Source: Flavobacteriales bacterium
GTDB lineage: Bacteria > Bacteroidota > Bacteroidia > Flavobacteriales_D > Sanyastnellaceae
Length of the DNA: 56,441 nucleotides
Assembly (NCBI GenBank): GCA_947442505.1
Contig: CANEVR010000010.1
Coordinates: 1-56,441, forward strand
Reading direction: 5' to 3'
The notes below the pieces were generated by a model. That model did not search any database. It was not told the origin of the DNA and worked only from the letters and a program-made list of their open reading frames with translations. Position numbers and translations under genes: made by a program. This document shows, one piece after another, positions 34,305 to 47,201 of this stretch. Every line of letters starts with the position of its first letter. Position 1 is the first letter of the stretch.

Positions 34305-35988
34305 TTATCTTCTCAAATGGGGATGTTGAAATCCCTTCTTCAGTTTCAATAGTCAAAAAATAAGTTCCTTGGGGCAAAAGTCCCACGGATAATTGAACAT
34401 AATTTTTATTCCAACTTTGCGTCCAACCAATGCTTGATACCAACTGACCCGATGCGTTTGTAACACGCAATGATTTCACCAAAGCACCCTTGGTCTTCAC
34501 ATTGATAATATCCTTAGCTGGGTTTGGGAAAATACAATCCAATTGTTTATTGGGCAATCCTTCATTTTCAAGCAATAGGTTGTATGCCCACCAAAAATCT
34601 GGAATTCCATATCCCAAATCCGCGTTATGGTTGGGAAAAAGACTTCCTGTCTTCTCGATTGCTCCCCTCACGCTAAATGGAGATGCTTGATCAAAAGCTG
34701 AAAGCAGAGATGCGGTTGAACCGGCTATGATTGGGCCGCTATATGATGTGCCATTGCCCTTTCCAACTTTATCATTTGAAAAAGGATAATAAGTCTTTAC
34801 TCCCATTGCTGAAACATTGGGTTTCACCCTGCCGTCATAGGTAGGTCCATGAGAAGAGAAGCCAGCCACCTTCATGGTACTGTCCACAGCTCCAACGGTC
34901 AATATCCCGTCTGCATCTGCAGGAGATGTAATATAATGCCATGCTCCATTGCCTGAATTGCCAGCACTATTCACAACGATGACACCCTTCTTGGCCAACT
35001 TCTCAGCCGCAATGCTGGCCCTTGAAACTTTACCCGTCATATCTGAATATTGATAATTCATTGTTGTATCATCAAACAACGAGTATCCCAAGGACGAATT
35101 GATAACATCCAATCCCAAAGAATCTGCTAGCTCTGCCGCTGCAACCCAATTGTCTTCCTCAATTCTATATTCTGAATCGACATCTTCAGTTTGAAACAAA
35201 TGATAGTTGGCCAACGGTGCAGCTCCAATAAACTGATCTTGCATAAAACCAGCCATGATACCCCAAACATAAGTACCGTGTGTACTTTTATCAAAGACAT
35301 TGGGCATTTGTGGATTGACAAAATCACGGGTCATGACCAATCTGCCCTCATCCCGAATGGCTGCAAATGCTCTCATTTGATCAGCACCCAACCATCCACT
35401 GTCAAATATGCCAACATCAACGCCTTGACCCTGAAAACCTGCCTCATGCAGACGGGTAGTGTTTACCATATTGAGCTGATGAAATCCCCATCCGTAACCA
35501 TTTTGATTGGGAAGAGACAACTCAATGGGACCCAACTCATCTTCTTGTTTCAATCGTCGCTTTCCTGCCTCTACTTCGTTGATGGAAAAATTTTTCACTT
35601 CTTGAACATAGGGCAAGGAAGCAATTTGTTCTGTGGCCGAAACTTGGGCGGCGCTGTCCAAAAGAGAAAGATTCACCGTCATGCTATTGAACCATTTGGA
35701 TGCATGATGCACAACACCGCCACTGATCTGTAAAACGCCTTGTACATATTGAGGATTGACTGGCAGGTCTTCTTCAATGATCTGAATACCCAATTTTAAT
35801 CTTCGTTCTAATGATTTAGAAGATAAAAAAGCTTGCGGATAATCCAATTGAAATGGCGTTCCCAATTTGTCCTTAAAAACAACATAGTAAAAACCAGGAG
35901 CATTCTGACACCAGCTCACCGAATGGGCTAGCCAAAATGCGATTATCACGAACGCAAATGGCTTGAATTTAATTCTTGGGTTCATCAA
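34297..35988 (-). CDS. Secreted S8 (subtilisin-like) serine protease with T9SS C-terminal sorting domain
   Basis: A 563-aa protease. After a signal peptide (about residues 1-28) comes a propeptide-like region, then the catalytic domain: aspartate in VDVGIFDSGW (about residue 197), histidine in STHGTYVWGIMAG (about 237), oxyanion asparagine in VVNSAGNSGNG and serine in NGTSYSGPIIAGS (about 414). The last 80 residues (IFPNPAKDIINVKTKG ... GQLVSSIG ... LPQGTYFLTIET) are a type A T9SS sorting domain, so the protein is sent across the outer membrane by the type IX system and its tail removed. It overlaps both neighbours by 20 and 8 bases. Confidence 0.93.
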   Translation of the reverse strand: MMNPRIKFKPFAFVIIAFWLAHSVSWCQNAPGFYYVVFKDKLGTPFQLDYPQAFLSSKSLERRLKLGIQIIEEDLPVNPQYVQGVLQISGGVVHHASKWFNSMTVNLSLLDSAAQVSATEQIASLPYVQEVKNFSINEVEAGKRRLKQEDELGPIELSLPNQNGYGWGFHQLNMVNTTRLHEAGFQGQGVDVGIFDSGWLGADQMRAFAAIRDEGRLVMTRDFVNPQMPNVFDKSTHGTYVWGIMAGFMQDQFIGAAPLANYHLFQTEDVDSEYRIEEDNWVAAAELADSLGLDVINSSLGYSLFDDTTMNYQYSDMTGKVSRASIAAEKLAKKGVIVVNSAGNSGNGAWHYITSPADADGILTVGAVDSTMKVAGFSSHGPTYDGRVKPNVSAMGVKTYYPFSNDKVGKGNGTSYSGPIIAGSTASLLSAFDQASPFSVRGAIEKTGSLFPNHNADLGYGIPDFWWAYNLLLENEGLPNKQLDCIFPNPAKDIINVKTKGALVKSLRVTNASGQLVSSIGWTQSWNKNYVQLSVGLLPQGTYFLTIETEEGISTSPFEKINE

Positions 35989-37051
35989 TCAGCTTACCAT
36001 TTTCCCAATGCTCAATTTTTTCAATATCACCATTGGGTTTTCTAAAAATAATTTTTCCCTCGTACACATCATGCAAGTACTCACCCTCCACTTTGGCTAT
36101 TGTACCAGACAATTTTTCTCTTTGATAAATACCGATTTTCTTATCCTCTTCCGAACCAGGAACCATTTCAAACTTCCCAACATCATAATATTCTTTGAAC
36201 CCACCCTCTTTTTTTCCATCGATATATGTGCACATCAATTTTGGGATTCCACTATCATAGTAATCTTCAACTTCTGCATTGATGTAAATCTTCTTCACGA
36301 CCTTTCCTTTGTCATAATGTACAAAAGCTTCCTGCTTTCCTTGGGCATTCATAAACTTCCACACCTTATCATAGTTGCCATAATAATACTCTCCCTGCAT
36401 TTTGGGTTTTCCATCGTCAAAGTAATACTTGGCCATTCCGTGCATGGAACCCTTCTCATAATTGCATTCTCTAATTTTCTTGCCGGCTTCGTTCCATTCT
36501 ATGTAATCTCCATGCAGTTCGCCGTTGAGATAAAAACAAGACGAGACCTTGGTTCCATTGGCCAAATACAATTCATAATAGCCTTCGCGCTTTCCGGCCT
36601 TTAAGTTCTCAATTGTTGAAATGGCTCCGTTCTGGTGGTACAGTTTCCACAATCCATCCTTGGTTCTTTTCCATTTGCCGTCCTGTAAATTGCCGACATA
36701 ATTACCTTCCGCCATAACTTGGCCATTGGCGTAAAACATTTTGACAAAATTGATGGTGCTGTCCTGAATATGGTCTACTTGAGAAATCAATTGAGCATCC
36801 TGATCATAGAAATTCCAAACCCCAATGGGTGTTCCATGATTGTATTGCCCTTTGTAATAAACGATATCAGGTTTGTTTTTATAAACGCGATACCAATCCC
36901 CATGGCGTTTTCCCGATCCGTCCAACACATTATAATCTTTTCCATAGGAGCCTTGAGGCAATGAAATTTTGGGCTGAGCACAGGCAACCGAGCCGATGAA
37001 AACAAAAAAGACCAGAATAAATCCTTTCAAAACCTTATTCAAATCATTCAT
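35969..37051 (-). CDS. Secreted YwqK/MORN-like repeat protein
   Basis: A 360-aa exported protein: signal peptide MNDLNKVLKGFILVFFVFIGSVACAQ, then eight or so units such as GDWYRVYKNKPDIVYYKGQYNHG, GVWNFYDQDAQLISQV, GLWKLYHQNGAISTIENLKAG, GDYIEWNEAGKKIRECNYEKG and GMAKYYFDDGKPKMQGEY, each about 22-24 residues, of the YwqK/MORN type. A cysteine at residue 24 could be a lipobox (GSVAC), so it may be lipid-anchored. A longer reading would run through the mdh promoter and is rejected. First gene of the operon with the T9SS subtilase; a near-consensus CATATTTG (minus strand, plus 37082-37089) may be its -7 element. Confidence 0.8.
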   Translation of the reverse strand: MNDLNKVLKGFILVFFVFIGSVACAQPKISLPQGSYGKDYNVLDGSGKRHGDWYRVYKNKPDIVYYKGQYNHGTPIGVWNFYDQDAQLISQVDHIQDSTINFVKMFYANGQVMAEGNYVGNLQDGKWKRTKDGLWKLYHQNGAISTIENLKAGKREGYYELYLANGTKVSSCFYLNGELHGDYIEWNEAGKKIRECNYEKGSMHGMAKYYFDDGKPKMQGEYYYGNYDKVWKFMNAQGKQEAFVHYDKGKVVKKIYINAEVEDYYDSGIPKLMCTYIDGKKEGGFKEYYDVGKFEMVPGSEEDKKIGIYQREKLSGTIAKVEGEYLHDVYEGKIIFRKPNGDIEKIEHWENGKLIDEPKN

Positions 37052-37141
37052 AATAAAAATTTTAATGATGATTGTTACGTGCAAATATGGTTCCTTAACG
37101 TAATATTGCCATCGAAAATTTCTCAAGAAAAAATAAAAACC

Positions 37142-38080
37142 ATGAAAGTTACCGTTGTAGGCGCTGGAAATGTTGGAGCAACATGCGCTGATGTGCTCGC
37201 TCACCGCGAGATTGCCAATGAAATTGTATTGGTAGATATCAAACCTGGATTTGCTGAAGGCAAAGCGTTGGATATTTGGCAAACATCTCCCATCAACCTT
37301 TATGATAGCCGCACTGTAGGTTCTACAGGAGATTATGCTAAAACAGCAGGATCTGATGTTGTTGTCATCACAAGTGGACTACCGCGCAAGCCTGGTATGA
37401 GCCGTGATGATTTGATCGCGACCAACGCAGGTATTGTAAAAACTGTAACTGAGAATATCATTCAACATAGCCCCAATGCCATCATTGTTGTGGTTTCAAA
37501 CCCGTTGGATGTTATGACTTATTGCGCTTACTTATCAGCAAAAGTACCGAGCAATCGCGTATTTGGTATGGCTGGTATCTTGGATACTGCTCGCTACCGT
37601 GCATTTTTGGCTGAGGCATTGAATTGTTCACCAAAAGATATCCAAGCTGTTTTAATGGGCGGACATGGAGATACCATGGTTCCACTTCCCCGTTACACCA
37701 CAGTAGGTGGTATACCAGTTACAGAATTGATTGAGAAAGATAAATTGGATGCCATTGTTGAGCGCACCAAAGTAGGCGGTGGAGAAATTGTCAATCTTTT
37801 GGGTACCTCTGCATGGTATGCACCTGGTGCAGCTGCAGCTCAAATGGTAGAAGCCATTGTTCGTGATCAAAAGCGCATCTTCCCATGCTGCGTATGGTTG
37901 CAAGGTGAGTACGGTTTGAAAGATATCTATTTGGGTGTACCTGTTGTCTTGGGTAAAAATGGTATCGAGAAAATCATTGAATTGCAATTGAACGCTGAAG
38001 AGAAAGCGCTTTTGGATTCATCGGCCAAGGCTGTAAAAGAAGTAATGGAAGTATTGGACAAAATGAATGCTCAAGCATAA
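37142..38080 (+). CDS. mdh: Malate dehydrogenase (LDH-like type)
   Basis: A 312-aa NAD-dependent enzyme of the TCA cycle. The Rossmann loop GAGNVGATCADVLA, the substrate-specificity loop SGLPRKPGMSRDDL (two arginines, malate-type), VVSNPLDVMTY and the catalytic GGHGDTMVPLPRY are all clear. The ATG of MKVTVVGAG is used; an upstream in-frame start would add 21 residues with no family counterpart. TAATATTG at 37101-37108 is a possible -7 element. A strong hairpin terminator follows the gene. Confidence 0.95.
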   Translation: MKVTVVGAGNVGATCADVLAHREIANEIVLVDIKPGFAEGKALDIWQTSPINLYDSRTVGSTGDYAKTAGSDVVVITSGLPRKPGMSRDDLIATNAGIVKTVTENIIQHSPNAIIVVVSNPLDVMTYCAYLSAKVPSNRVFGMAGILDTARYRAFLAEALNCSPKDIQAVLMGGHGDTMVPLPRYTTVGGIPVTELIEKDKLDAIVERTKVGGGEIVNLLGTSAWYAPGAAAAQMVEAIVRDQKRIFPCCVWLQGEYGLKDIYLGVPVVLGKNGIEKIIELQLNAEEKALLDSSAKAVKEVMEVLDKMNAQA

Positions 38081-38100: not shown

Positions 38101-38130
38101 AAAGGTTGTTCTTTTGAACAACCTTTTTTT
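38101..38130 (+). terminator. Rho-independent terminator of mdh
   Basis: AAAGGTTGTTC-TTTT-GAACAACCTTT is a perfect 11-bp stem with a 4-base loop, followed by four more Ts (seven in a row at 38124-38130). The convergent DAO oxidoreductase gene ends at its edge; the T run overlaps the last bases of that gene. Confidence 0.92.
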
Positions 38131-39235
38131 ATTTGGTCAATTTACTCAACTCCTTTCCGACCCAAGTACCAATAGCAACGCCCATTCCGCCCATTCGCAC
38201 ACCGACATAAACACCTTCCTTCATCTTTTGAATGATGGGACCTTTGCTTTTGCCCATGCCCATAATTCCGGACCAACTGTAATCAACCACGATATCTCGC
38301 TTGCCCAAAAGTTCACACAAGAAATTTTTGAGATATTCCTGATTATCCAAATTCTCAGCAACAACATCTGTTGACTCTTCCCTCTCAAATAAGTCGCGCC
38401 CCCCGCCTATTAACACTCTTTTCCCAATGCTTCTCAAGTAGACATAGCCCTCTCTGATGTGAAAACTTTGATGCCAAGGTCTCTCTAAAATCTCGTTGGT
38501 TACCAATACCTGATTCCGAGCTGGTATCACATCCAAATCAGGCAACAATTGACGCGCAAATCCATTGGTACAAACAACAATATTTTTTACAGCAACCTCC
38601 TTTCCTCTGATGACCAAACCAGGACCATTTATATCCAAACGATCTATGGTTAAACCATACCTAAATTCCACCCCAATGGCCGCGCATTTCCGTTGCCAGG
38701 CCTGAATCATTTTTCCAGGGTGCAAGATGCCTTCACCCTTTATTCTTACCACTGATTGCACGCCTTGAAATCCCCAATCATTGGTGGTGTATGCGTATGG
38801 CTTAAACTCCAAAAATTCCGCTGCTTGGTCGTTGAGTTGATTCAATGCCCCTTCCACTTCTTGGCTCAAATCATTATTATCCTTTAGAAAAATCTCAAAT
38901 CCATCATTTTGGTAAAAATCCATTTCGTCATCTGAAATATAGGATCTCAGCAATTCCAGACCTCTCCAACGCATGGCCATGGTGGAAAAGACTTGATCAG
39001 CGGGTTGGTTTTTCAAATCAGATAAAATTTCAGACGGGCTGCCAAAGCAGGCAAATCCTGCATTTCGGGTAGATGCTCCAAAAGAAACAAAATCTCTTTC
39101 AAAAACAACAACACGTGCATCGGGGTGTTCCAATTGAATGTGATAAGCCGCACTCAAACCGACAATTCCACCACCTATGATGGCAAAATCAATATTTTTT
39201 AACCAAATTTCGTGTTCCCAATAACTAAAATTCAT
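38129..39235 (-). CDS. FAD-dependent oxidoreductase of the DAO family
   Basis: A 368-aa flavoenzyme. The dinucleotide-binding fold is at the N terminus (DFAIIGGGIVGLSAAYHIQLEHP, with VVVFERDF at the end of the second strand), then the DAO-type ASTRNAGFACFGSPSEIL segment, a substrate-domain beta sheet and a C-terminal WSGIMGMGKSKGPI ... VYVGVRMGGMGVAIGTWVGKEL FAD contact. It resembles amine or glycine/D-amino-acid oxidases; substrate unknown. I use MNFSYWEHEIW; two in-frame ATGs further up (39256, 39277) lie in the 44-base gap to the divergent gene and are less likely. Confidence 0.85.
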   Translation of the reverse strand: MNFSYWEHEIWLKNIDFAIIGGGIVGLSAAYHIQLEHPDARVVVFERDFVSFGASTRNAGFACFGSPSEILSDLKNQPADQVFSTMAMRWRGLELLRSYISDDEMDFYQNDGFEIFLKDNNDLSQEVEGALNQLNDQAAEFLEFKPYAYTTNDWGFQGVQSVVRIKGEGILHPGKMIQAWQRKCAAIGVEFRYGLTIDRLDINGPGLVIRGKEVAVKNIVVCTNGFARQLLPDLDVIPARNQVLVTNEILERPWHQSFHIREGYVYLRSIGKRVLIGGGRDLFEREESTDVVAENLDNQEYLKNFLCELLGKRDIVVDYSWSGIMGMGKSKGPIIQKMKEGVYVGVRMGGMGVAIGTWVGKELSKLTK

Positions 39236-39279
39236 ATTTTTACGTATAGAAATCATGCTAAGATAAAAGCAGGTCATTC

Positions 39280-42042
39280 ATGAATTACACGAGCGCTATC
39301 AAATATTCCTTTTTGGTCATTGCCTTCATTACTTTGAATGCATTGAAAAGCTTGTCACAAAACAACAGTGTGATTACACTGTTGATTACACTCAAAGACG
39401 AAGAAAACGAAACCAAGTTGGGCGGTGCTTCCATGACCATTTACAAGAATGGCGGTCAATTTGAGGCCCTGACCATACCTGAAAGTGGAAAGATCAAAAA
39501 AGAATTGCAGCTTGGTCATACTTACGACATCAAATTTGCCAAAGAGGGTTATGCCCAGAAAATTGCCCGAATAGACACCCGCAATGTGCCTAAAGAAGAG
39601 CAGCCTGGTGGATATGAGTTTACGATGGAGGTGTTTTTATTCAAGCCACCATCCGGTTTCAATACGGATATTTTGAAAGAACCCGCTGCCAAGGCCATCT
39701 ACATGAGCGACATTGATAAAGTGGATTGGGATGAAGAGTACATTCGGAAGCAAAAAGAAAAAATTGATGCGGAGTGGAAGCGTGTTAAAGACGCTCGCAA
39801 AGCAGATGAAGCCAAATACAAAGAATTTGACAAGCTCATAGCAGAAGGTGATGATGAAGTCATTGTGAAGCGCTATGAAACTGCAATTGCCAGGTATGAG
39901 GCTGCTCAAAGACTCTTCCCAGGGGATGCCTTACCCAAGCAAAAAATTGCCAAAGTTCAAGAGCTGATGGGCCAGGCGGATGAAGCCAAAAAAGAGGAGG
40001 CACGATACCGCATGTTATTAATTGATGGTGAAGAAGCCATGAAAAACAGTCAATGGGAAGTTGCTCAGGCCAAATTCAATGAGGCCAAGAAAATGAAGCC
40101 CAAGGAAAAGGAGCCCAATGAGAAATTGGCTGAATTGGACAAACGCATGAAAAACGCAGCCAAGTATGCGCAATATGATGCTGTGATTAAGGATGCCAAT
40201 CGTTTGTTTGATGCAGAAAAATGGGAGGAATGTATGGCCAAATACAAAGAGGCCAGCAACATGATGCCACAAGAAACCTATCCAAAAGAACGATTTGCCC
40301 GAGCCAAAGAATTGTTGGATAAGTCAAAATTGGATGCAGAAGCACAAAACAAAAAAAACAAGCGCTACAGTGAATTGATGGCTTTGGGTCAGAAAGGAAT
40401 CGATAAAAAAGATTATACCACAGCCATTGTGCAATTCCAAGAAGCAGCCAATTTGAAACCTGAGGAGAAATTACCAAAGGATAAGATTGATGAAATCAAT
40501 CGTTTATTAAAGGAGCAAGAGGATGCCATACAAGCAAAGAAAGTCAAGGAAAAAGATGATTTAGAGGCCGCTAGAAAAAGGAAAGAATATGATGCTGTTT
40601 TAAAAAACGCGGATGAAATGTTCAAATCAGCAGCATCCAAAGATTTGGCTAAACTTTCGCAATCGAAGGAATTTTACAACCAGGCATTGGCCATCTTACC
40701 AGCTGAGGCATATCCCAAATCCCAAATTGCAGAAGTAGAATCGCTCATTACCAAGTTAAAAAGCGAAATGAATGCGGCTGAACTTGAAAAACAAATGAAG
40801 GAAGCTGAGCGTCTCAAGAAAGAGGCTGAAATGAAACAGGCTTTAATTGATCAGGAGGAACGCGCATTGGCTGAGCGCAGAAGAAGGGAAGAGGAAGAAG
40901 CTGAGAAGAAAAGAAAGTTAGACGAAGCATTGAACAGCGCTGTCAAAGGTGGCGGAGGTGGAAACATGAGTGGAAGTGCTGCGGAAGATGCGTTGGATGC
41001 TTTTTACAGAGAAGCGCGCAAACAAAGATCACAGTTGCGTGCAGATTCCATAGAGCAAGAGAAAAGAAAATTCCACAACTATGATCGCTATTTCAGCAAG
41101 AAAAATGAAATGCGTCAAGAAGAAACCATCAAAGACTTAAATGAAATTTCTGAGTATTCTACTCGCATTCATATACGCGGAGGTAAAATTCATGAAGTAA
41201 ATGTTCAATCCACCCAAGAACAAAATGCTGCATTTGCGGAAACGAATAAAAAACTACTCCTTTCATCTGTCAAACAAAGGGATGAGCGCATAGAAGATAC
41301 TGAGACATTTAAACAAATGATTTTGAACGTAAAAACCAAGTCGGAAAGCATGCGGGAGAAAAGCAGCCGAATCAGTGTTCAAAAACAAGAGCTTTCCAAT
41401 GAGCAAGCTACCTATCACCAGCGCTCAGTAGACCGAACTAAAATGGCCGTTCGAGATTTAGAACTGCAAAGAAAAGAGGCGGATAAAACATTGACCTTTG
41501 GACAAGAATCCCAACAAGCGCGTGCTGCTGACTTTGTAGAAGCCAATGCCATTCTAAATTCCAACAATGAATATTTGTTATCCGCTGCGGAATCCAAAAG
41601 AGACATGAATATGACCAATGTGTCTAGCCAAAAAGAAAGTTTGATTGCCAATAGTCAAGATAAAAAAGACTTAAGGGATGAAAATCTTATGGCCATTGAT
41701 GATGTCAAGTACAATACTCAGTTGAATCTAAGAGCTAAAAAATCAAGTGCTGAAGAAGAAGGGTTCACCAAACGCGATGATCTTTTCAAATCAGCTGTAT
41801 TGCCCAAGCACCAGACAAGGTCTGAGATTATTGCCAATGTTCAGGAAGAAGAGGATGCCATCACTGAAAGATCATTTGATGTTGGCAATAAAAAAGTACT
41901 TGAAAGAACTGTGAAAACAGAAGGACAAACTTTCGTCTACCGTAAAATTGTTTCTACTGCTGGGGTTTATTATTTCAAAAACGGATTAAGCATTACGGAG
42001 CAAACTTGGAAAGATGAAACAACCGATTTGATGACCAAGTAA
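39280..42042 (+). CDS. Large exported coiled-coil protein with five TPR-like repeats (unrecognised)
   Basis: A 920-aa protein of unknown function. A signal peptide or anchor (residues 1-26) precedes a beta-rich module of carboxypeptidase-regulatory type (30-122, with GASMTIYKNGGQ and GKIKKELQLGHTYDIKFAKEGY). Residues 140-500 hold five degenerate helical repeats of the form ..Y..A..L.P.E.YPK.KI.E...L (about 182-230, 249-290, 305-346, 368-410, 445-490), then a charged coiled coil (500-550), a glycine patch (GGGGGN, 557-562) and a long helical tail. It ends with a compact motif VYYFKNGLSITEQTWKDE. aroQ follows with no gap. I cannot place it in a named family; a structural periplasmic or envelope role is inference. 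Confidence 0.72.
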   Translation: MNYTSAIKYSFLVIAFITLNALKSLSQNNSVITLLITLKDEENETKLGGASMTIYKNGGQFEALTIPESGKIKKELQLGHTYDIKFAKEGYAQKIARIDTRNVPKEEQPGGYEFTMEVFLFKPPSGFNTDILKEPAAKAIYMSDIDKVDWDEEYIRKQKEKIDAEWKRVKDARKADEAKYKEFDKLIAEGDDEVIVKRYETAIARYEAAQRLFPGDALPKQKIAKVQELMGQADEAKKEEARYRMLLIDGEEAMKNSQWEVAQAKFNEAKKMKPKEKEPNEKLAELDKRMKNAAKYAQYDAVIKDANRLFDAEKWEECMAKYKEASNMMPQETYPKERFARAKELLDKSKLDAEAQNKKNKRYSELMALGQKGIDKKDYTTAIVQFQEAANLKPEEKLPKDKIDEINRLLKEQEDAIQAKKVKEKDDLEAARKRKEYDAVLKNADEMFKSAASKDLAKLSQSKEFYNQALAILPAEAYPKSQIAEVESLITKLKSEMNAAELEKQMKEAERLKKEAEMKQALIDQEERALAERRRREEEEAEKKRKLDEALNSAVKGGGGGNMSGSAAEDALDAFYREARKQRSQLRADSIEQEKRKFHNYDRYFSKKNEMRQEETIKDLNEISEYSTRIHIRGGKIHEVNVQSTQEQNAAFAETNKKLLLSSVKQRDERIEDTETFKQMILNVKTKSESMREKSSRISVQKQELSNEQATYHQRSVDRTKMAVRDLELQRKEADKTLTFGQESQQARAADFVEANAILNSNNEYLLSAAESKRDMNMTNVSSQKESLIANSQDKKDLRDENLMAIDDVKYNTQLNLRAKKSSAEEEGFTKRDDLFKSAVLPKHQTRSEIIANVQEEEDAITERSFDVGNKKVLERTVKTEGQTFVYRKIVSTAGVYYFKNGLSITEQTWKDETTDLMTK

Positions 42043-42474
42043 ATGTCCATTAAAATCACAGTCATCAACGGTCCAAATCTAAATCTTCTGCATCTCAGGG
42101 ATAGCCAACTATACGGCAACATAGGATTACCGGAAATTGAATCATCCCTTAAAAACGCCTTTCCGGATATTGCTTTTGATTTTTTCCAATCCAACATAGA
42201 GGGTGAGCTCATTGAGAAAATTCAGAATTGCATTAAAGCACAATCCGCAATCATCATCAATCCTGGTGGATATGCACACACGAGCGTCGCCATTCATGAT
42301 GCATTAGAATTGATTTCATTGCCCAAAATAGAAGTGCATCTATCCAATATTCACAACAGAGAGTCCTACAGACAACACAGCTTAACGGCTGCTGCGTGCC
42401 ACGGCGTCATCGCGGGTCTTAAGGATGAAGGGTATCATTTGGCCGTGCGGGCCATTTTAAACTTAAGCCTTTGA
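42043..42474 (+). CDS. aroQ: Type II 3-dehydroquinate dehydratase
   Basis: A 143-aa enzyme that dehydrates 3-dehydroquinate to 3-dehydroshikimate, acting as a dodecamer. Motifs: INGPNLNLL at the N terminus, R19 and Y24 of the active-site lid (LRDSQLYG), SNIEGELIEKIQ, NPGGYAHTSVAIHDAL and EVHLSNIHNRESYRQHS with the catalytic histidine. The usual SNHEGEL histidine is isoleucine here, a substitution I believe is common in Bacteroidota. It begins on the base after the stop of the 920-aa gene, so it is probably translated from the same message; the PH-like gene overlaps its end by 12 bases. Confidence 0.94.
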   Translation: MSIKITVINGPNLNLLHLRDSQLYGNIGLPEIESSLKNAFPDIAFDFFQSNIEGELIEKIQNCIKAQSAIIINPGGYAHTSVAIHDALELISLPKIEVHLSNIHNRESYRQHSLTAAACHGVIAGLKDEGYHLAVRAILNLSL

Positions 42475-43032
42475 ATAGGCCTTAATGGCACTGTCCATTA
42501 CACGCACTAAATTCTCAGCGGAACGAATGTCCAATTGTTTGCCCACTCGGTAATTCGTCGATCCATGGACAAAGCCAATTCTTTCTCCTCCAATCACCCA
42601 AAAGCTATCATCCAAAAACGCCAAGAAATTACCTGGATCAGATTTGATGATTCCCAATTTTTGAATGGACTTCAATTTCAATTTCTCCTTTTTTCCTTTG
42701 CTTCCAAAAGCGTTTTGAATCTCCATTTCTCCAGGACGAATCCAAATCTTCTCTTTGCCCATTCTTCTCCACAAAAATGCTTTACCAATTCTTACAAAAA
42801 AGTACAACCACAAGGATGTAGATACGATGAAAAAGATCCTATCAGACAACGCCTGTGCGACAACGGCGTAGTAAATAAACACACCGCCACAGTATGCCCA
42901 AGCCAACAACCAACTCAGCAACATACTCAATTTCCATCGCTCTACTTTTTGATCAATCTCAATCTGGATTTCTTGATCTGATGATTTAGTCACCACAATT
43001 CTAGGGGCGATCTGTTGCGTCTGTTTCTTCAT
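42463..43032 (-). CDS. Membrane protein of unknown function with PH-like C-terminal domain
   Basis: A 189-aa protein with two adjacent transmembrane helices (about residues 34-56 and 64-84) and a soluble C-terminal half (95-180) rich in beta strands: IWIRPGEMEIQNAFGSKGKKEKLKLKSIQKLGIIK and FWVIGGERIGFVHGSTNYRVGKQL, closing with a helix. The arrangement resembles bacterial PH-like membrane proteins. No name can be given. It overlaps the end of bshA by 4 bases, so it is co-transcribed with bshA. Confidence 0.68.
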   Translation of the reverse strand: MKKQTQQIAPRIVVTKSSDQEIQIEIDQKVERWKLSMLLSWLLAWAYCGGVFIYYAVVAQALSDRIFFIVSTSLWLYFFVRIGKAFLWRRMGKEKIWIRPGEMEIQNAFGSKGKKEKLKLKSIQKLGIIKSDPGNFLAFLDDSFWVIGGERIGFVHGSTNYRVGKQLDIRSAENLVRVMDSAIKAYSKA

Positions 43033-44192: not shown

Positions 44193-47100
44193 TCAGCGGA
44201 ACAACTGATTGTACACTTCCGTCTGAATCTTGGTTCTGTAATTCCCTTGAATCAACTTTTTGTTATCCGCGCTTGGATGTATTCTGTTGCTTAAAAAGAC
44301 AAAAACCAAATCATGTTCAGGATCCACCCATCCCATGGTCCCTGTAAATCCTGTATGCCCAAAACTACCATCTGAAACCAATTCAGATGCGCTGCCACCA
44401 GTGGTTCCTTTTAATGGTGGTTTATCCAATACCAATCCACGTCTATTACCTGCCAAGTGCCGTTGATTAAACAAATCCACCGTCTCTGAACGAATGAACT
44501 GTTTACCCCGAAAGTTTCCCTTTCCATTCAACAATTGAAGAACTGCTGCCAGGTCATAGGCGTCTGAAAACAAACCAGCATGTCCTGCCACACCACACAT
44601 AAGGGCTGCCGTCTCATCATGAACATAGCCACGAATCATTTGACGCCTAAAAACAGTATCATTCTCTGTTGGTGCAATTCGACTTAGATCCAATCTTTCC
44701 AATGGAAGGTAGCCTAGTGTGCTCAATCCCATGGGATGATAAAAGTTCTCGTTTAAAAAATCAGTCCAAGACTTACCCGTCTTCGATTCGACAAACTCCT
44801 TTACGAAAAAATAGCCAAGATCACTGTATTCATATTGTGCAGGCAATTTCAGTGGCGTTTCAAGAATCTTCCCTCTGATTGCACCAACGATACAATTATC
44901 AGAGAACAAACTATCGGCCACAACCCTGTCGCTACTGTCTCTTCTATCCTTGTGCCAAACAGCTGAATTAAAAACGCCGGCAAAGGGAATAAAGTTTTTC
45001 AGTCCCGCTTGATGGGAGAGCAAATCCTTCCATTTGATTTTTGCATATGGTGATTTCCTTGGAAAAGTAAGACTTTCCCCAAGTGTTGATTCCATGTTCC
45101 AGTACCCGTGATCATACATCCACATCATGGCCAAGGCCGACGCAGACATTTTTGTAATAGAAGCCAAATCGTAGACGCTGTTCAACTGCACCGGACTTCC
45201 ATGCTGACAATCCAAATAGCCGTAGGCATGATCGTAAACAATTTCACCACCTCGAGCAACCAATAATCGGCAACCTGGAAAGGCCCCTTCCATCAAACCA
45301 GCGTTAACCAAAGAATCAACGCGATTCCATTGGTAACGATATTGGAAACTATTGCTTTCTTGCTCCACTTGAAACATGTTCTCCAAATACTCTTTGTTCT
45401 TGGGCACAACAATATTTCGAGATTTAATCAACCGCAATTGCTCTGGTGAACTATAAACAGATTTTGACAACACATTCCATTTTGGAAGTTGAACACCATC
45501 CCCACATCTCCACATGGAACCTACACTCACAGGTAATTTCCCGGTGAATGATCTTGCACCTGAAATGGCTTCCATCATCACATGTTGGGTCAATTCATCA
45601 TCTTGATATCCCGTGGCAATCAGATCAAAATTCAAAACATCCTTTTCATTTCCTATGGCGTAAGGATTTGAAAAAAGCAAAAGCATTTTGTTCTTTTCAT
45701 TGTTCCAATTTGAAATCCAATTCAACCAATAAGGTGACACACTAAAATTTTTAGATGCTTTGCTCGACGTATTTACAAAGGCAAATCCAACCAAATCATA
45801 TGCATTGAGCAAAGACAATAACACCTGAGCTGTATCTTTCCATGTCGAGTCAATATCACGTGGCCAAAAATGAAAATCAACCTGATTCAAAACCTTCGAA
45901 GAGGCCACCAGTTGACAGGTTGAATCACCGCCAATAATCACGAGAACTTTCTTAGACAATGGGTCTCGCCAAGCTTTCAATGCAGTTGAATCCGTCTTCA
46001 TGAGCGTTAGCGCCCCTGCATTAACGTCCTGATAAATTTGAAGTGCTTGAGGCTGACCCAAATCTTCCATGACGTTGTCTTTTTTCAAATGCACTCCTCC
46101 ACTTAATCCACACCACTCTTTGCTTTGTAGAATTTTATAACAACTTTCATCAATACGATCCATTGACAATTCTCCACTGGCCAATTTGGCTTTGATGGCT
46201 TCTATGGCCTTTGGGATGTTTGATGGGAAAAGTAAAATATCATTTCCTGCTTGGATGGCCATTACTTCCATTTCACCTGGCTTAAAATGCTTGGCTACAC
46301 CCTGCATGTTCAACGCGTCGGTAACAATGAGACCTTTAAAACCCATTTGCTCTTTCAACAAATCTTGAATCAATGCTGAAGAGAGCGATGCCGGAATCCC
46401 TGGTCTATTTTCATAAGCAGGCACATACAAATGACCCGTCATGATACTGGACAATCCTTGCTGAATCAATGGGGGATAGGGATAGAGTTCCAAGCTATCC
46501 AGCCGCTCCTTTGAAAACGGAATCACCGGCATATCTTCATGGCTATCTGTATCCGTATCACCATGACCGGGAAAATGTTTGGCACATGCTAAAATATGAT
46601 TCTCTTGCAAGCCTTCCATAAAAGCCTCACTGGCCTTCAACACACCGACTCTATCCTCCCCAAAAGAGCGATTGCTAATGACAGGATTTCTGGGATTGTT
46701 ATTGATATCCACAACTGGCGAAAAACTAAAATGAACACCCAATCGTTTCAATTGTCTGGCTGTCTCTGCAGCATAGTCTTTGACAATTTTCATATCAGAA
46801 AGGGCGCCCAATGTCATTTGACGCGGATAGAGAATGGTGGAATCCAAGCGCATGCTCAAGCCCCACTCGGCATCCATTCCAATGAGCAAAGGAATGTTGG
46901 ACATGTCTTGGTACCGCTGTGTAAATTTCAATTGATTCTGCGGACCACCTTGAAAGAAAATGATGCCCCCCACTCCGTATTTCGAAATCCAATCCACCAT
47001 CTGCTTGTCATTGAAATACATGTGCTTGGGATCGCTCCATGCGGGAACCATGAAGAGCTGACCAATTTTCTGGTCCAAAGTAAGTGTGCTAAATACCGAA

Positions 47101-47201
47101 TCAGCCCACGGTGTTAAAGCACGCGTAAATACGGGCTGGGCTTTTACTCCTGCACAAATCGCTACAAAAAAATACAATCCTAGAAAAATCCTTCTCATCA
47201 A
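44193..47201 (-). CDS. GH3 beta-N-acetylhexosaminidase fused to a beta-lactamase-fold serine hydrolase
   Basis: A 1002-aa exported two-enzyme protein (signal peptide MMRRIFLGLYFFVAICAGVKAQ). Residues about 30-370 are a NagZ-like GH3 domain, with the catalytic His/Asp-bearing KHFPGHGDTDTDSHEDMP near 207-225 and GLIVTDALNMQGV with the nucleophile aspartate. A GH3 C-terminal sandwich follows (about 380-580). From about 620 there is a class C beta-lactamase/D,D-peptidase fold with the serine motif SITK (about 680), YSDLGYFF for the tyrosine motif and HTGFTG in place of KTG. Both halves fit peptidoglycan turnover or recycling in the periplasm. It is followed by bshA on the same strand. Confidence 0.92.
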   Translation of the reverse strand: MMRRIFLGLYFFVAICAGVKAQPVFTRALTPWADSVFSTLTLDQKIGQLFMVPAWSDPKHMYFNDKQMVDWISKYGVGGIIFFQGGPQNQLKFTQRYQDMSNIPLLIGMDAEWGLSMRLDSTILYPRQMTLGALSDMKIVKDYAAETARQLKRLGVHFSFSPVVDINNNPRNPVISNRSFGEDRVGVLKASEAFMEGLQENHILACAKHFPGHGDTDTDSHEDMPVIPFSKERLDSLELYPYPPLIQQGLSSIMTGHLYVPAYENRPGIPASLSSALIQDLLKEQMGFKGLIVTDALNMQGVAKHFKPGEMEVMAIQAGNDILLFPSNIPKAIEAIKAKLASGELSMDRIDESCYKILQSKEWCGLSGGVHLKKDNVMEDLGQPQALQIYQDVNAGALTLMKTDSTALKAWRDPLSKKVLVIIGGDSTCQLVASSKVLNQVDFHFWPRDIDSTWKDTAQVLLSLLNAYDLVGFAFVNTSSKASKNFSVSPYWLNWISNWNNEKNKMLLLFSNPYAIGNEKDVLNFDLIATGYQDDELTQHVMMEAISGARSFTGKLPVSVGSMWRCGDGVQLPKWNVLSKSVYSSPEQLRLIKSRNIVVPKNKEYLENMFQVEQESNSFQYRYQWNRVDSLVNAGLMEGAFPGCRLLVARGGEIVYDHAYGYLDCQHGSPVQLNSVYDLASITKMSASALAMMWMYDHGYWNMESTLGESLTFPRKSPYAKIKWKDLLSHQAGLKNFIPFAGVFNSAVWHKDRRDSSDRVVADSLFSDNCIVGAIRGKILETPLKLPAQYEYSDLGYFFVKEFVESKTGKSWTDFLNENFYHPMGLSTLGYLPLERLDLSRIAPTENDTVFRRQMIRGYVHDETAALMCGVAGHAGLFSDAYDLAAVLQLLNGKGNFRGKQFIRSETVDLFNQRHLAGNRRGLVLDKPPLKGTTGGSASELVSDGSFGHTGFTGTMGWVDPEHDLVFVFLSNRIHPSADNKKLIQGNYRTKIQTEVYNQLFR

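Follow-up and report, generated by a model that had tools for sequence, protein, structure and literature searches.

The window, the 56,441-nucleotide stretch of DNA analysed here, makes up an entire contig (C10) of a Flavobacteriales genome of 2.64 Mb (96.7% complete, 106 contigs). A gene at 39280–42042 (+ strand) runs from an ATG start to a TAA stop codon at 42040–42042 and encodes a protein of 920 amino acids. The adjoining gene, aroQ (42043..42474, + strand), annotated as a type II 3-dehydroquinate dehydratase, has its ATG at 42043, directly adjoining the stop codon. Head to head with the protein gene lies a gene for a DAO-type FAD-dependent oxidoreductase (38129..39235, − strand), whose start was set at Met15 of the longest open reading frame (38129–39277) because homologues begin there; the divergent intergenic region (39236..39279) measures 44 bases with this start and 2 bases with the longest reading frame. 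From the N to the C terminus, the protein comprises a signal-like start, a beta domain, five repeats, a coiled coil, a run of five glycines, a helical stretch and a C-terminal domain. The initial annotation had described the reading frame, its parts and the abutting aroQ from the sequence, and this outline held overall. A full-length AlphaFold model, computed from a 5-row alignment (mean pLDDT 67.6, pTM 0.26), places in order a seven-strand domain, an array of helical hairpins joined via long helices, the coiled coil, helices of low confidence (residues 556–850) and a C-terminal beta-meander followed by a helix.

The N terminus (residues 1–27; 39280..39360, + strand) resembles a signal peptide, with K8, a hydrophobic run and an SLSQ-N junction. 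Of 92 homologues beginning with methionine, 83 fit a custom pattern that consists of a hydrophobic run followed by x-x-Q. No lipobox is present in the window protein, in which the sole cysteine is residue 318, and a lipobox-like motif occurs in two of 96 collected domain-bearing proteins. The following domain (residues 28–135; 39361..39684, + strand) is a predicted beta-sandwich of the CarboxypepD_reg-like kind, assigned from the model, from the PF13620 scores of relatives and from profile A2. Its seven strands span residues 31–120, with ten-residue pLDDT means of 75–87 and one exception at 55, in agreement with the single beta module noted earlier. PF13620 is not among the Pfam matches of the window protein itself; the cut-off of 32.3 bits is passed by relatives L160 (41.9 bits) and L158 (33.7 bits), both of which also match profile A2 over the N-terminal domain. 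Profile A2 matches a chain of serine-aspartate repeat protein D (E 1.4e-05), and Foldseek returned a 99-column match (rmsd 3.0) in a Gram-positive protein, probably to the N-terminal domain. Searched with this domain, the genome of origin yielded 12 matching places at E ≤ 1, including a second one within the window protein; stand-alone proteins of 172 and 193 amino acids rank directly behind the window protein. Among the matches, L080, L083 and L084 appear by eye to include two TonB-receptor-like proteins and one OmpA-type-like protein.

The repeats occupy residues 181–233 (39820..39978), 241–293 (40000..40158), 297–349 (40168..40326), 361–413 (40360..40518) and 441–493 (40600..40758), all on the + strand and all identified from the model and the repeat profile, the fifth being 6 residues longer than in most rows of family f1, the family to which the window belongs. 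Their cores lie at residues 218, 278, 334, 398 and 478 and are modelled as helical hairpins, so that the count of five in the initial annotation is right; the repeats are nevertheless not of an unrecognised kind. Foldseek with the full model places TPR chains first (E 1.2e-05), with query-normalised TM-scores of 0.09 or less and mostly large rmsd. TPR_2 scores 110.6 bits in relative L063 (cut-off 27), and TPR_11 reaches 22.2 bits in the window protein, below its cut-off of 26.8. The window repeats thus belong to the TPR repeat proteins, with cores 56–80 residues apart, beyond the classical 34-residue TPR. The weak Foldseek TPR matches, together with the pTM of 0.26 and the low confidence over residues 556–850, give no support for an overall straight rod or TPR superhelix. 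The charged coiled coil (residues 497–556; 40768..40947, + strand) was recovered from both sequence and model, as was the glycine patch GGGGG from the sequence (residues 557–561; 40948..40962, + strand). In the alignment, five consecutive glycines are restricted to the window protein and its two nearest relatives, GGG occurs in two more members of the genus, and the patch is absent from a fifth relative and elsewhere. The poorly conserved helical stretch that follows (residues 562–846; 40963..41817, + strand; model and alignment) contains the long helical tail of the earlier description at residues 567–826, modelled with low confidence (ten-residue pLDDT means of 27–69).

The C-terminal domain (residues 851–920; 41830..42039, + strand) is predicted to fold as a beta-meander plus helix. 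The distinct terminal motif pointed out previously, VYYFKNGLSITEQTW at residues 896–910, lies inside this folded domain, which spans about 855–918. Modelled alone, the C-terminal 70 residues reached a mean pLDDT of 85.8, with core blocks at 91–96. Pfam contains no family matching the window domain, and a scan of 34 such domains gave scattered matches only, none convincing: the best was to a plant-virus family (0.0017, 3 members), and DUF6922 was matched in 5 of the 34 (best 0.024). A profile search of the PDB found no convincing chain (best E 0.62). Structure comparison gave a best E of 0.11 with Foldseek and, with VIA-align, a best Z of 6.7 (rmsd 2.5, 62 aligned residues) to a cohesin SMC head; because a Z under 8 is the level of common arrangements, fold kinship with SMC heads or PUR repeats was not accepted, and the absence of a better VIA-align row does not imply a novel fold. 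By sequence, the domain appears to constitute a new family, with no convincing Pfam or PDB match.

For the window protein as a whole, no Pfam or NCBIfam model exceeded its cut-off, NCBIfam having been scanned with whole proteins only, and PHROGs gave no match; a search of a plasmid collection with L069, the one order homologue queried, was also negative. The claim that no named family covers the protein is therefore true of its full length, and no strong full-length match to a characterised family emerged. The wider suggestion of an undescribed protein holds for the C-terminal domain and not for the remainder: with a CarboxypepD_reg-like beta module and TPR repeats, two of the three folded parts are of known kinds, and a family is lacking only for the C-terminal domain. 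Through the scores of relatives, the N-terminal domain and the repeats are of the same broad kinds as the CarboxypepD_reg (PF13620) and TPR families, whereas the window protein itself falls below the cut-offs and the libraries searched contain no family for its C-terminal domain. Literature searches, covering few subscription journals, revealed no paper that we recognised as dealing with this protein family; the accessible text of Gupta and Lorenzini (2007) describes 38 Flavobacteriales-specific proteins, several of them "secreted" (PMC1887533), and that of PMC12611786 does not mention TPR. We file the protein as a periplasmic TPR scaffold, a known kind, with the addition of a common domain lacking a convincing match.

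Conservation along the protein was compared in 24 proteins of family f1. Mean pairwise identity is highest in the C-terminal domain (0.53), the best-conserved part of the protein, followed by the N-terminal domain at 0.43; values for the TPR array (0.35) and the coil (0.32) are lower, and the variable helical stretch is lowest (0.23, over residues 556–848). This gradient indicates that the ends are kept while the middle drifts. The protein is under purifying selection: for its two nearest relatives, dN/dS is 0.046 against the 96% identical one and 0.025 against the 94% identical one, for which dS is 1.2 and near saturation. Within the C-terminal domain, the comparison with the 94% relative comprises 0 nonsynonymous and 28 synonymous changes.

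Neither the protein nor its terminal domain is a lone oddity missing from related genomes. With the window protein as query, matches were found in 251 of 299 genomes of the order, many over part of the length, and the C-terminal domain profile was detected in 263 of the 299, including 190 of 203 good-quality genomes and 62 of 65 genera. A single domain match was counted from the table in 247 of the 263 positive order genomes and two matches in 16; outside the order, up to eight occur per genome. The suggested check for recurrence of the terminal motif gave a mixed answer: it occurs once in its own genome, and a second, short protein carries it in other genera. In a class-level sample searched with the broader profile A6, 172 of 345 genomes were positive at E ≤ 0.05, 12 of them members of the order; dropping seven marginal rows (0.0079–0.049) leaves about 165 at ≤ 1e-3. 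A phylum-level sample searched with profile A1 had given 3 positives in 395 genomes, all 3 in the order; the order-restricted family that this count implied was ruled out by the 172 of 345 class genomes, the two samples covering largely different families with different profiles. The C-terminal domain is thus widespread but patchy in the class Bacteroidia and, given that about half of the class sample is without a match, not generally essential there. In named records, the nearest relatives are metagenome bins, four of which are titled Flavobacteriales bacterium; besides these, the record of L031, whose protein is 96% identical to that of the window, is titled Chryseobacterium gleum, a bin that may be misnamed.

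The 96 collected domain-bearing proteins range from 199 amino acids (a contig-edge fragment) to 2233 amino acids and contain 0–24 repeat units according to the repeat profile, with a correlation with length of 0.73; repeat number varies while both ends stay. With this profile, which was built from family f1, no unit was found in 16 of 87 proteins over 310 amino acids, including examples of 1737, 1900 and 2233 amino acids, in which diverged repeats or other helices may fill the length. A short second form was found at seven loci (L116–L122) in order families f2, f4 and f8, one of them cut by a contig end. At about 250–300 amino acids, it consists of a signal peptide, one repeat, the coil and the same C-terminal domain. 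At L116–L120, inspection by eye placed the short form near genes for a LysR-type regulator and a small Cys-rich, zinc-ribbon-like protein.

Several further neighbours were recorded. Within the window, these are a protein that fuses a glycoside hydrolase family 3 domain to a beta-lactamase-type domain (44193–47201, −) and that several f1 loci retain close to bshA and aroQ; a 189-residue protein without a Pfam family (42463–43032, −), which likewise adjoins aroQ and bshA at several f1 loci; and a MORN-variant repeat protein (35969–37282, −) that matches an LIC20035 adhesin model below cut-off. At other loci, an Mpl/MurC-like ligase gene recognised by eye adjoins the homologue or lies within 3 genes of it at L123, L157 and L160, representing three families. 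Genes of a homology cluster designated c7, lying near DAO at L045:4314-6452 (−) and at 11 other f1 loci, encode proteins of about 460–740 amino acids; the scanned member contains thrombospondin type 3-like repeats and a PorG match of 1.2e-12 (48.1 bits, below the 130-bit cut-off).

Taken together, the conserved ends, the drifting middle of variable length and the signal-like start are best explained by an adaptor or tether that is exported. From this anatomy, we infer that the protein is soluble, exported and most likely periplasmic, a reading to which we give about an even chance. The polypeptide would leave the cytoplasm through its cleaved signal peptide; the N-terminal CarboxypepD_reg-like domain would hold one partner or surface and the C-terminal beta-meander domain another, while the TPR array and coiled coil would set the distance between the two ends, with length tuned by repeat number. 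Seven short relatives of 243–303 amino acids, in which one repeat unit and the C-terminal domain are kept, support the tether reading. The architecture likewise suits the structural or scaffolding envelope protein put forward in the initial annotation, the scaffolding itself being presumed. A promoter shared with the DAO gene would be a plausible reason for the gene pair.

Alternative readings that rest on gene neighbourhood were weighed in a census of loci chosen from strong matches and not at random, with near-copies kept (e.g., L036 and L040) and with L060 and L074, whose proteins are cut before the C-terminal domain, left out. The zero-base gap in the window and the direct 3' adjacency of aroQ at 16 of 44 long order proteins in 8 genera, with aroQ one or two genes downstream at a few further f1 loci, could suggest a role connected with aroQ and the shikimate pathway. 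All of these loci belong to family f1, however, and direct adjacency was seen at none of the 43 long proteins from outside the order, nor in the other order families sampled; such a lineage-limited arrangement looks like compaction, as originally supposed, and makes a shared function extremely improbable. The more telling neighbour in this synteny comparison is one that had gone unremarked: a head-to-head DAO gene accompanies 33 of the 44 long order proteins (families f1, f2, f4, f7 and f9). Outside the order, 11 such pairs in nine families were counted among the 43 long proteins, and the 9 short proteins yielded none; the contig ends before the 5' neighbour for 3 of these 43 long proteins and for 1 of the 9 short ones. 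On a tree of 77 of the 96 rows (39 DAO-linked, 38 not), from which near-copies L036, L038, L040, L050, L053 and L055 and proteins without a strong N-terminal match were left out, the DAO label requires 16 changes, compared with a mean of 26.0 over 500 shuffles, none of which was as low; it is present on either side of the midpoint split of this weakly resolved tree, which together with the few changes fits an old pair with many losses. Possibly, the exported protein and the cytoplasmic oxidoreductase form a functional pair serving one process under shared regulation, and the ApbE-type flavin transferase gene, another flavin gene, found directly 3' of the homologue at six of seven sampled f9 loci (L063–L066, L068 and L070; Pfam-checked in L063 only) would suit such a pair, an Mpl-like ligase gene taking its place at the seventh. 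Nevertheless, the linkage is frequently missing, conserved adjacency can be purely regulatory, and no substrate is indicated for the DAO protein, which has no PDB sequence relative at 1e-3 and no NCBIfam model over cut-off. The flavin-acceptor motif [ST]G[AT][ST] is absent from all seven f9 proteins checked; flavinylation of the exported protein by the neighbouring ApbE was rejected on this ground, and we regard the functional pair as unlikely.

The remaining alternatives place the protein in known envelope machineries. It could be an accessory of type IX secretion or gliding, working, in the manner of PorE or SprE/PorW, as a periplasmic TPR scaffold that anchors outer-membrane parts to the cell wall or links them together. 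PorE (PG1058) is an exported Bacteroidota protein that combines TPR with a carboxypeptidase-regulatory-like fold and is a proposed scaffold (PMC5053529), and SprE/PorW is likewise presented as an extended periplasmic TPR scaffold (PMC10994853); the two show that such scaffolds exist in Bacteroidota. The TPR domain is shared with PorE, and the seven-strand N-terminal domain recalls its carboxypeptidase-regulatory-like fold, although only relatives of the window protein pass PF13620 and the position differs. PorE additionally has a beta-propeller, whereas the window model has no strand of at least 3 residues between 121 and 860; it has an OmpA_C-like peptidoglycan-binding domain, whereas the C-terminal domain of the window protein is a beta-meander plus helix, neither a beta-propeller nor an OmpA_C-like Pfam match being found in the window protein to E 1; and it is a predicted lipoprotein, unlike the window protein with its lone Cys318. 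In SprE, a lipoprotein, the well-defined part comprises 13 TPR units, whereas the window protein is without a lipobox and has beta domains at both ends. Among neighbours, a c7 gene with its sub-cut-off PorG match lies beyond DAO or beside the homologue at 12 of 41 loci, all f1, and at L069 and L072 the gene beyond DAO belongs to cluster c35, the scanned member of which carries a CHU_C type IX signal; yet no por, gld or spr model exceeded its cut-off among the scanned minority of neighbour genes. SprA was detected in 336 of the 345 class-sample genomes and in 0 of 14 control genomes, and this near-universality makes co-occurrence with type IX uninformative. With the C-terminal domain in about 165 of the same 345 genomes, and in two (G742 and G845) of the nine that are SprA-negative, it is not a required type IX part, and we consider an accessory role fairly unlikely. 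A link in TonB/Tol-like force transmission or in attachment of the outer membrane to the wall is suggested by a next same-strand gene of TonB type, with an N-terminal anchor by eye, at five f1 loci (L058, L061 and L125–L127), the L061 gene matching TonB_C over cut-off (8e-08). Of the three that were scanned, though, L126 fell below the cut-off (0.0064) and L058 had no TonB match, and a TonB-type gene was not recognised at other loci, which leaves this link very unlikely. Highly improbable is a type IX cargo on the cell surface with the C-terminal domain as sorting signal, a role that its terminal position, strong conservation and beta structure would suit. Type IX sorting signals are common to many cargoes, against a single domain match in most positive order genomes; with hits to E 1 considered, neither Pfam nor NCBIfam gave a type A or B C-terminal signal model for the window protein, and no type IX signal was among the Pfam families matched by the 34 C-terminal domains.

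Returning to the exported adaptor or tether, we propose, as a tentative extension well short of an even chance, that it may belong to a class-wide and so far undescribed periplasmic system of the Bacteroidia, in which an old pair of DAO oxidoreductase and length-variable TPR tether operates and the new domain docks on a conserved envelope partner. A common domain that is strongly selected, and for which the libraries searched offered no convincing family, indicates an envelope component that annotation has seemingly missed, and the head-to-head flavoenzyme provides a first genetic handle on this envelope protein.
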